Of a DNA stretch of 64,000 nucleotides, positions 10,887 through 30,366 are shown one piece after another (position 1 is the stretch's first letter; every line of letters starts with the position of its first letter). The stretch is taken from the NCBI GenBank assembly GCA_014379345.1, contig JACMLY010000148.1:1-64000 (forward strand). Direction: 5' to 3'. Under the pieces are notes generated by a model. It was not told the DNA's origin. It saw nothing but the letters and a program-made list of their open reading frames with translations, and did not search any database. Both the position numbers and the translations under genes were made by a program. Source of the stretch: Chitinophagaceae bacterium. Its GTDB lineage: Bacteria; Bacteroidota; Bacteroidia; Chitinophagales; Chitinophagaceae.

Positions 10887-11305
10887 CTATCCCTTCGGCA
10901 TCTTACTCATATCCATGTACAACACACTCCATCTAAGGCCATCCAGATCCTCAAATCCGAATCTGTACATTCAGCCATGATTTTCGCCTGGTTTAACCCA
11001 AACTGCACCTCCGGCTGCTTTAAGTGTTGCAAGTTCATCCACTTCTTCCCTGCCTTCTGAATCAGTAGAAAATAACACTTACGTTAACTGTTTTGTATCA
11101 GCAATTTTGTTTTGGGCAAATCCCTGAACACTGGTTCTGCGCAAAGCATTATTATAATGCTCTTTGTTCCGGCAAATACATTGGACATTTGTTCGGTCTC
11201 GGGAAGACATGTGTTTTGAGTAAAACCGATTACATTAAAAAATTCTCTCGATTTTTTTACGTGTTTTACTGGTAGATTTATCAAAGTTCTTTTGTCATTA
11301 TACAA
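10887..11305 (-). pseudogene. Broken second copy of the VOC protein at 19647-20063
   Basis: Read on the minus strand, this copies the intact glyoxalase-fold gene at 19647-20063 along its whole length, from the INLPVKHVKKSREFF N-terminus to the MDMSKMPKG end. It is disrupted by at least three changes. A single-base deletion near 11126-11128 (ATCCCTGAACACTGG against ATCCCTGGAACACTGG) shifts the frame. The STEVLFS glutamate codon has become TAA near 11082. The tryptophan codon of the GENQGWMYG block has become TGA near 10973. About 70 N-terminal codons remain open. Some similarity continues upstream to about 11400, so a segment larger than the gene was duplicated. Confidence 0.88.
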
Positions 11306-11685
11306 TGTGTTTTTGACTAATGGTCATTAAGAGTACTAATGACATAGTATTGTACGCAGTGTAAAACCGCCAAGATAAAGGGCAATTCCGCTAATGAGGT
11401 GCAGTAAACTGAATTTCTGGAAGAGTCGCCTTCATAGCCCCCTGTTGGCTTTGAGACCTTTGCATTTATTGAATCTCTGCAAAGAAGCCAACTGCAAAGA
11501 GTGCTTAGAAGGAGATTGAAATAAGAAGATTGGCATCCGCGGTTGCTGAGTAAAGGACTGGCCAAGAATTGGCTTGCCGTTGGGGATACCCCAATATTGC
11601 AGCTCCGTGTCATGTGCCACCACCTTTAACATTAGTGAAGGGGAGACAGAACACCGTTCATTGATAATAGAATTAATTTTGTAGG
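11306..11685. other. Intergenic stretch, partly duplicated DNA
   Basis: No convincing gene. The part near 11327-11395 (GTCATTAAGAGTACTA... and GTGTAAAACCGCCAAGATAAAGG) resembles the upstream flank of the intact VOC gene (about 20098-20165), so it belongs to the duplicated segment. Two open frames on the minus strand have no protein-like composition. TAATTTTG at 11674-11681 resembles a -7 box but is too close to the next start to be convincing. Confidence 0.5.
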
Positions 11686-19646: not shown

Positions 19647-20063
19647 CTACCCCTTCGGCATTTTACTCATATCCATATGCAATACATTCCACCTGTGGCC
19701 ATCAGGATCGGTAAAAGCGCATCCATACATCCAGCCCTGGTTTTCTCCGGGTTTAGCAAAAACATTGCCTCCGGCGGCAGTAACCTTTTCAGCCAGTTCG
19801 TCTACCTCGTCCCGGCTTTCAGCATCAAAAGAAAATAAAACTTCCGTTGATTGTTTTGTATCTGCAATTTTGTTTTGGGAAAATCCCTGGAACACTGGTT
19901 CTGCGCAAAGCATTATTACAATGCTCTTTGTTCCGGCAAATACACTTGACATTTGTTCGGTCTCCGGGAAATGTGTGTTTTGTATAAACCCAATTTTCGT
20001 AAAAAACTCTCTTGATTTTTTTACATCTTTTACGGGTAGGTTGATCCAAAGTTCCTTAGTCAT
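19647..20063 (-). CDS. VOC family protein (glyoxalase/bleomycin-resistance fold)
   Basis: A 138-residue vicinal-oxygen-chelate protein with the YaeR/lactoylglutathione-lyase-like pattern: LWINLPVKDVKKSREFFTKI at the start, the central VIMLCAEPVF strand, and FTDPDGHRWNVLHMDMSKMP at the end. Substrate unknown. It has an AAGGAG stretch eight bases before its ATG, unusual for this phylum. A disrupted copy lies at 10887-11305, so this is the surviving member of a duplication. Confidence 0.87.
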   Translation of the reverse strand: MTKELWINLPVKDVKKSREFFTKIGFIQNTHFPETEQMSSVFAGTKSIVIMLCAEPVFQGFSQNKIADTKQSTEVLFSFDAESRDEVDELAEKVTAAGGNVFAKPGENQGWMYGCAFTDPDGHRWNVLHMDMSKMPKG

Positions 20064-29483: not shown

Positions 29484-29488
29484 GGTAT

Positions 29489-29494
29489 CCTCCT
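29489..29494 (-). promoter_or_regulatory. Shine-Dalgarno site of rplI
   Basis: AGGAGG on the minus strand, five bases before the rplI ATG and overlapping the rpsR stop. A full-consensus site is notable because most genes in this window, and in this phylum, lack one. Confidence 0.8.
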
Positions 29495-29759
29495 ACTTTA
29501 AAAGATCGGTTACATACGGCAACAACGCCATCTGACGCGCTTTCTTTACTGCCTGCGACACCTTACGCTGGAACTTCAATGAGTTGCCCGTAATGCGACG
29601 CGGCAATAATTTGCCTTGTTCGTTTAAAAATTTCTTCAGGAATTCAGCATCCTTATAATCGATATACTTGATGCCCATCTTTTTAAAGCGGCAGTATTTC
29701 TTCCTGGGCTTATCAGCCTTGATCGCCGTCAGGTACTTAATTTCGTTTGCTTTTGCCAT
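29493..29759 (-). CDS. rpsR: 30S ribosomal protein bS18
   Basis: An 88-residue bS18. The core shows in [33 protein letters not shown] and [20 protein letters not shown], ending near LPYVTDL. bS18 pairs with bS6 on the platform of the small subunit near the 3' end of 16S rRNA. It starts three bases after rpsF, with GGAGG eight bases before its ATG. Confidence 0.97.
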
Positions 29760-29762
29760 AAA

Positions 29763-30116
29763 CTAAGCCTCCACTTTTTCGATTCCTGTAGGTACGCCTC
29801 TTCTCTTTTTTTCATTGTACTCGACGGCGTATTTATCGAGTGCGGTGAACATGTGACGCATTATATTGTCGTCACGCAGAAGCTGGATTTTCAGCTTCTC
29901 ATTGAAGTCGGATGGCGCTTTGTACTCCAATACCCAATAAAGACCGGTGGTCTTCTTGTTGATTGGAAAGGCCAGTGATTTTAGTCCCCATGGTTTTTCG
30001 TGCAATATTTCACCGCCGTTTTCTTTGATAAACGAGGTAAATTTTTTCTGAGATCCTTTGTAATCATCATCAGAAAGCACAGGGGTAAAAATCACCATCA
30101 ATTCGTAGTTGTTCAT
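29763..30116 (-). CDS. rpsF: 30S ribosomal protein bS6
   Basis: A 117-residue bS6 with the family start (NNYELMVIFTPVLSDDD), the KPWGLKSLAFPINKKTTGLY block and the end region (LRDDNIMRHMFTALDKY). First gene of the operon and partner of bS18. It lies behind a well-matched Bacteroidota promoter. Its own ATG has no Shine-Dalgarno site, unlike the two genes after it. Confidence 0.97.
   Translation of the reverse strand: MNNYELMVIFTPVLSDDDYKGSQKKFTSFIKENGGEILHEKPWGLKSLAFPINKKTTGLYWVLEYKAPSDFNEKLKIQLLRDDNIMRHMFTALDKYAVEYNEKKRRGVPTGIEKVEA
29768..29772 (-). promoter_or_regulatory. Shine-Dalgarno site of rpsR
   Basis: GGAGG on the minus strand, eight bases before the rpsR ATG, inside the last codons of rpsF. 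Part of the sequence is fixed by coding, so it could be partly chance. Confidence 0.6.
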
Positions 30117-30160
30117 TGCCCTGTTTTTGGTTAAATAATAATAAAATTCAAAATGGGTTG

Positions 30161-30190
30161 CAAAGGTAGGGGAATCACGTCAAAAGGCAA
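30161..30190 (-). promoter_or_regulatory. Promoter of the rpsF-rpsR-rplI operon
   Basis: On the minus strand TTG (30190-30188) is followed after 19 bases by TACCTTTG (30168-30161), an exact match to the Bacteroidota consensus. It leaves a leader of about 40 bases before rpsF. Confidence 0.8.
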
Positions 30191-30366
30191 AGGGTGCGGT
30201 CAATTTACTCTTTATAGCAGTCAATATATGAGGTGTTCGATAAACACGTGCTCAAAAAACCAATTATTACGCTAACATTGCGGCTCAAAACCTGACAAAA
30301 TTTCTCTTTTTTAGACTTATCAGTCTGTGGCATCCGGTTTGGTAACCCATTATAAAATTCATCATT

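Follow-up and report, generated by a model that had tools for sequence, protein, structure and literature searches.

Rare Shine-Dalgarno sites on rpsR and rplI as candidate sensors of ribosome completeness in a Chitinophagaceae bacterium

In F. johnsoniae, a pocket made of bS21, bS18 and bS6 hides the tail of 16S rRNA, as described by McNutt 2023 (PMC9976891). In the reporter experiments presented in that paper, an AGGAGGU site in a tuf reporter raised expression by over 2-fold when bS21 was truncated at its C terminus and by 70% on depletion, a reporter carrying AGGA was virtually unchanged upon bS21 loss, and the addition of AGGAGGU gave no rise in expression in wild-type cells. The rpsU gene itself goes up 3- to 4-fold upon bS21 loss, and the same work presents autoregulation as shown for F. 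johnsoniae rpsU. According to the summary of Jha 2021 given there, rpsR often carries a strong Shine-Dalgarno (SD) sequence in Bacteroidales, Cytophagales and Sphingobacteriales, and Chitinophagales are among the groups that this summary names for rpsU, not rpsR; rplI is listed among the SD genes of certain Bacteroidia. That bS21 and/or bS18 regulate their own synthesis has been proposed in these sources (PMC9976891, PMC8710568), and the feedback idea with which the original prediction interpreted the present locus is thus already in print for rpsR. Our literature search found nothing demonstrating rpsR autoregulation and no report of an rpsR site in Chitinophagales, supplements and most subscription papers lying outside its scope. 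A second described system acts on the same operon: in E. coli, bS6:bS18 represses rpsF via a leader RNA, as set out in PMC4647458, and this leader is described in PMC7247131 as very widespread and missing in Chlorobi.

The 64,000-nt window analysed here (the whole stretch of DNA, not the operon alone) comes from a 5.14-Mb MAG (173 contigs), and contains rpsF, rpsR and rplI as a head-to-tail series on the minus strand (Table 1). A homologue of rplI follows rpsR in 144/144 family genomes. As originally predicted, with coordinates and description that agree with the sequence, GGAGG precedes rpsR and AGGAGG precedes rplI. The rpsR GGAGG overlaps the final rpsF codons (GTG GAG GCT TAG), the sequence up to the start being GTGGAGGCTTAGTTT followed by ATG, and the rplI AGGAGG begins within the rpsR stop codon TAG (AAAGTAGGAGGATACC followed by ATG). 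The description of both spacings as ideal fits rpsR, at 8 nt; the 5 nt of rplI is short, and recurs in 14/17 family members having the site. The rplI site and start are largely paired in a single predicted fold of the isolated mRNA, computed with no control, and would therefore need unfolding, for example by translation. The rpsF start in the window has no SD site (CAAAAACAGGGCA followed by ATG). The putative promoter upstream was assigned with what we take to be the Bacteroidota promoter consensus, and TAnnTTTG is found at most 110 nt upstream of rpsF in 116/141 family genomes.

Table 1 Features of the rpsF-rpsR-rplI operon in the window
Feature	Position	Strand	Basis and remarks
Putative Bacteroidota-type promoter, TTTG-N19-TACCTTTG	30161-30191	minus	Sequence
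rpsF leader, ~44 nt, AT-rich	30117-30160	minus	No structured leader RNA detected; ends CAGGGCA before ATG
rpsF (bS6)	30116-29763	minus	ORF; PDB relatives 9i5v and 7jil bS6; first gene of the operon
GGAGG of rpsR	29768-29772	minus	Sequence; 8 nt to ATG; pairing -10.2 kcal/mol with the family 16S tail
rpsR (bS18)	29759-29493	minus	ORF; PDB relatives 9i5v and 7jil bS18
AGGAGG of rplI	29489-29494	minus	Sequence; 5 nt to ATG; pairing -12.6 kcal/mol
rplI (bL9)	29483-29037	minus	ORF; name from position and the original prediction

Sites of this kind are rare in the genome. In 951 kb of this MAG, window included, a simple caller, whose start positions may be wrong, took as genes the largely non-overlapping ATG open reading frames with a minimum of 80 codons. 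GGAGG lies 4-12 nt before the start in 2/54 called genes of the window, namely rpsR and rplI, bearing out the prediction that most genes in the window have no site. Across the 951 kb the count is 4/753, compared with 3/753 for a mock position 40 nt further upstream, and the four genes are rpsR, rplI, rpsH (L202:612-1010) and an unnamed gene (L218:1101-1688, minus strand). With sites at background level genome-wide, two neighbouring genes with well-placed sites are far beyond chance. Among the 753 genes, 17 starts versus 35 mock windows reach a predicted pairing energy of -9 kcal/mol or below with the 16S tail, a result from which SD sequences seem to be avoided in this genome, as they are in Flavobacteriales according to McNutt 2023 (PMC9976891). 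Of the 119 genes whose start is 30 nt or less from the preceding gene, 3 have a site, rpsR and rplI included. A scan of 623 genes for alternative in-frame starts with GGAGG gave 7 candidates; in six, the start codon is GTG or TTG. The pattern GGAGG-N4-10-ATG shows a mild excess genome-wide (842 matches versus 587 for the reversed pattern) and most matches in the sampled part lie away from called starts, so that the motif is present at many non-start places.

Besides rpsR and rplI, two window genes reach -9 kcal/mol: a small protein gene at 19647-20063 on the minus strand, with AAAGGAG upstream (MTKELWINLPVKDVKKSREFF, -11.4 kcal/mol), and a doubtful ORF at 11317-11613, with a predicted pairing of -9.8 kcal/mol. 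Elsewhere in the genome (G000:C36), rpsH (uS8, plus strand) carries AAGGAGG upstream of its start, a site found in 4/30 loci, its own included, and in 0/3 other genomes of the genus. The unnamed gene, also on G000:C36, starts 1 nt after its neighbour and has ACAAGGAGG before its ATG; its pairing of -13.0 kcal/mol is the strongest among the 623 genes scored first, and its product is perhaps an anti-sigma factor, which is a guess.

The components of the anti-SD pocket, on whose existence the original prediction relied, are present in this lineage. The organism's own 16S rRNA was not found in the MAG; its 3′ end reads GGAAUACCUCCUUUUUAGAG in 5/5 relatives in which the end was found (16S matches in 10/49 genomes, some partial), indicating that the family retains the CCUCC core. 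For bS18, bS6 and bS21, the F. johnsoniae 7JIL chains are the best or second-best PDB match, and Tyr54 of bS21 is conserved in 47/47 sequences from 46 genomes. The pocket is thus represented by 16S CCUCC (taken from the five relatives), bS21 Tyr54 and Bacteroidota-type bS18 and bS6. Of the two genes bearing a site, rpsR encodes the pocket protein bS18, and the rplI product, bL9, is outside the pocket.

Compared with F. johnsoniae rpsU as described in PMC9976891, the locus is alike in placing an SD on a pocket-protein gene, in an SD-poor Bacteroidota genome with conserved pocket proteins. It differs in pairing: 9-13 bp and below -13 kcal/mol there, 5-6 bp here, with energies from another program (RNAduplex; the published -13 kcal/mol cut-off stems from the authors' free_scan). 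By RNAduplex, rpsR, rplI and the organism's own rpsU (-9.5 kcal/mol) all pair more weakly than this mark of rpsU-type autoregulation, and rplI is a non-pocket gene. With 5 and 6 bp, the sites fall between the weak (AGGA) and strong (AGGAGGU) published test sites. The locus also resembles the rpsR SDs of Jha 2021, in the form in which PMC9976891 and PMC8710568 present them: the gene and the proposed self-regulation are the same, and the rpsR value falls within their range of -7 to -14 kcal/mol, again in an SD-poor genome. The present case differs from those of Jha and McNutt, as they are described there, in extending to a Chitinophagaceae-like family, with the site in 78/144 genomes, and in adding codon evidence.

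We followed the sites through a family sample of Chitinophagaceae-like genomes that includes the window. An even draw of 147 family genomes yielded rpsR in 142, to which two more members of the genus were added; the resulting 145 loci plus the window make 146, and removal of two second copies (L271 and L366), with one partial copy (G130:C219) left out, leaves 144 genomes. The rpsR GGAGG is present in 78/144 (mock 0/144) and in at least one member of 57/96 genera, the rplI site in 17/144 (mock 0), and an rpsF site in 0/141, three loci having no rpsF. By pairing of -9 kcal/mol or better, the counts are 80/144 for rpsR (mock 13), 18/144 for rplI (mock 6) and 5/141 for rpsF (mock 10). Conservation, proposed as a check on the prediction, is thus partial: 66/144 genomes have no rpsR site and 127/144 no rplI site. 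Within the genus, both sites occur in the window genome alone (1/4), the three other genomes having AGAAG in place of the GGAGG motif. A quick tree built from 139 genomes calls for at least 17 changes in the rpsR site and at least 13 in the rplI site. Among 80 named loci, split into Chitinophagales-like and Bacteroidales-like by match-list rank and not by taxonomy, the rpsR site is found in 26/49 and 24/31, respectively (mock 0), the rplI site in 7/48 and 16/31, and an rpsF site in 0/45 and 0/30. Lacibacter cauensis (L020), whose rpsF also has a class B leader RNA (see below), and Niabella hibiscisoli (L038) are two named strains carrying the rpsR site.

Co-occurrence of the rpsR and rplI sites was considered and is not claimed: the counts 13/5/4/33 give p = 9e-6 with gaps of at most 15 nt and p = 0.07 with gaps unlimited, and independent tree pairs, too few to decide, show none (median p 1). 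Three genomes hold second rpsR copies (L271 in G158, L366 in G146 and G130:C219, one of them partial), and one genome holds a second, divergent bS21 gene (L082, G038:C48:119-277); these extra copies are either paralogues or contamination.

The overlap of the rpsR site with the end of rpsF allows selection on the RNA to be told from selection on the protein. In 110 genomes no more than 5 nt separate rpsF from rpsR, and any site there overlaps the rpsF end. A penultimate Glu of rpsF is encoded by GAG in 78/96 of these cases, versus 1079/3642 for Glu codons elsewhere within the three genes. GAG is in the majority in 55/68 genera (p = 3e-18 against background, genera not being fully independent). 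The Val codon preceding GAG is GTG in 52/53, versus 697/3349 Val codons elsewhere, and the Val preceding GAA is GTA or GTT in 9/9. This skew of synonymous codons towards GTG GAG indicates that the rpsR GGAGG is kept as a nucleotide signal, apart from the protein end of bS6; it is under selection at the RNA level. The codon evidence covers the rpsR site alone, not that of rplI.

These data bear directly on the idea that the sites arose by chance or as a by-product of an rpsF protein ending in Val-Glu-Ala, to which we give very little credence. GGAGG is only five bases long, and 50/110 of the tight genomes do end in VEA; the synonymous codons are nevertheless skewed, the GGAGG mock count is 0/144, and 10 genomes with a VEA or AEA end have no GGAGG. 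The codon test speaks against chance for rpsR, and chance is less firmly excluded for rplI taken alone.

The same tight gene arrangement suggests another explanation, in which the sites are constitutive helpers of re-initiation that keep bS6, bS18 and bL9 in proportion with no sensing of the pocket: a ribosome ending rpsF or rpsR would halt over the site and be held for the next start. Each of the two sites overlaps the stop codon of the preceding gene or lies next to it, rplI sites occur only at gaps of 9-13 nt (17/17), and where the rpsF-rpsR gap could be measured it is at most 5 nt in 77/77 genomes with an rpsR site, compared with 33/64 site-less genomes. On the other hand, 116/119 genes placed 30 nt or less behind another gene in the 951-kb sample of the organism's own genome have no site, and the AGGAGGU reporter described in PMC9976891 gained nothing in wild-type F. 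johnsoniae. Taking these together, we regard re-initiation as a possible but less probable account, and the sensing of incomplete ribosomes as the preferred one.

Feedback on the operon might also run through the known binding of bS6:bS18 to rpsF leader RNA, with the SD sites playing a minor part. We found two structured, covarying kinds of leader before rpsF in relatives, located between the promoter-like TAnnTTTG and the ATG (hereinafter designated class A and class B). The class B alignment (A2; 29 sequences, e.g. L241:968-1059), made of 24 of the 29 sorted class B leaders and five others picked by eye, has 17 pairs, 8 of them changed on both sides, with 95.9% of cells paired and a covariation of 0.428 versus 0.114 shuffled and at most 0.110 slid. 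The class A alignment (A1; 26/32 sequences, e.g. L238:2126-2224, minus strand) has 13 pairs, 11 of them changed on both sides, with 91.1% paired and a covariation of 0.657 versus 0.281 shuffled and at most 0.201 slid. Searched against 77 loci, some from genomes also used in building them, the class B model gave 15 strong matches (E ≤ 1.7e-8) and the class A model 8 (E ≤ 0.0016), each lying immediately upstream of rpsF. Class B gave three weaker matches besides (20.3-21.4 bits), which likewise run up to the start of rpsF; two of these belong to the nearest congener (L002, L223). Rfam reached no family at gathering score at the rpsF leaders of 40 loci (9 class A, 13 class B), and in the window it found only 5S. 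Judging from position and a CC element, the two classes are probably forms of the bS6:bS18 leader.

The covarying leaders in relatives and the established E. coli system (as described in PMC4647458) favour such a leader-based feedback; the window's own short leader does not. Neither model finds a leader there: the class B model (R1) scores 9.1 bits unfiltered and R2 gives nothing with filters on. Elsewhere in the window, R1 scores no higher than 20.8 bits (E 0.009), at 11283-11352 on the minus strand, an AT-rich stretch far from rpsF that we take as noise and as marking the noise level. Sorted by our own pattern classes, the rpsR site accompanies 24/29 class B leaders, 29/43 short leaders, 24/37 others and 0/32 class A leaders, the last figure not being independent, since a distance of 10 nt or more between rpsF and rpsR, at which no genome has the site, was one of the marks used to sort class A. 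The coexistence of site and class B leader means that the site is not superfluous where a leader is present, and we consider it quite unlikely that leader binding accounts for the feedback in the window species. Relative to the bS6:bS18-binding rpsF leader as described in Babina 2015 and, in the account of citing papers, in Matelska 2013 and Fu 2014, the operon, the proteins and the feedback on synthesis are the same; there, free protein represses via the leader RNA, and in the window species no such leader was detected.

Replacement of the leader RNA by the SD was also considered and is not seen, the site being common with both class B and short leaders. An AGGG no more than 6 nt from where rpsF begins, in many cases as CAGGGTA directly before ATG, is found in 72/141 family genomes, the window (30117-30123, minus strand) included, and that near a start in only 3/623 cases in the organism's own genome; it is too near the ATG for a normal SD.

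The organism's own rpsU (L001, G000:C35) carries AAAGAGGUAU, a weakened extended SD. Many relatives have strong rpsU sites, AAAGGAGGUAU or AAAGGGGGUAU, and the HJP_bin9 relative (G002) reaches -15.7 kcal/mol with AAAGGAGGUAU. Many of the extended rpsU sites of relatives are AAAGGAGGUAU, which fits the family's own 16S tail rather than the more general form, UCACCUCC. A trade-off between rpsU and rpsR sites was looked for in 46 genomes and not seen, with strong defined as -13 kcal/mol or better and G038, which has two rpsU copies, represented by its C55 copy: 17 have both, 16 rpsU only, 7 rpsR only and 6 neither (p = 1). The rpsU and rpsR sites are thus independent, and there is no general switch between them. 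What this analysis adds to the published proposals is the spread of the rpsR site through a Chitinophagaceae-like family, its patchy occurrence there, the skew in synonymous codons, the lack of an rpsU trade-off and the leader RNAs.

We put at roughly 55% the probability that the two sites are real SD sequences in an SD-avoiding genome, that of rpsR kept by selection, and that they act as sensors of ribosome completeness. On a complete 30S subunit, bS21, bS18 and bS6 would hide the 16S tail and the sites would do little. On a 30S subunit short of pocket proteins, the free tail would pair with GGAGG, rpsR and rplI would be read more, and the supply of bS18 would climb until the pocket closes again. 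The likeliest sensor would be bS21, which is bound loosely, or, more generally, late intermediates of 30S assembly, rather than bS18 alone, and the sites may form a small SD regulon of rpsR, rplI, rpsH and, weakly, rpsU. By analogy, we infer that rpsR and rplI in this organism would respond as do F. johnsoniae rpsU and the SD reporter.

Sensing of a free anti-SD covers rplI and rpsH, and the strict idea of a pocket protein controlling itself does not. The feedback reading as first predicted is supported in so far as the sites are rare and partly conserved, that of rpsR is selected as RNA and the pocket proteins are present; it falters on bL9, a non-pocket protein, and on bS6, whose gene has the site in 0/141 family genomes. 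Counting against the sensor reading, at the probability given, are the patchiness of the sites, the non-pocket status of rplI and rpsH, pairing below that of rpsU, the lack of a link with strong rpsU sites, and the predicted mRNA pairing of the rplI site and start. An extension of the sensor reading that we consider unlikely is that this lineage moved its free-anti-SD sensor from rpsU (AAAGGAGGUAU in G002, AAAGAGGUAU here) to ordinary SDs on rpsR, rplI and rpsH. A few genes, one of them for a 50S protein, would on this view be adjusted to how complete the 30S platform is, with no bS6:bS18 leader RNA; the three other genus genomes have no sites on rpsR, rplI and rpsH alike, as if the set had been lost or gained together.

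SD sites kept by genes of SD-blind ribosomes reveal what such ribosomes can still sense, and the family, which offers natural pairs of genomes differing in the presence of the site or of the leader RNA, makes the published rpsR proposal testable. If the sensor reading is true, the loss of platform proteins would retune the supply of ribosomal proteins via the ribosome itself, without a repressor.
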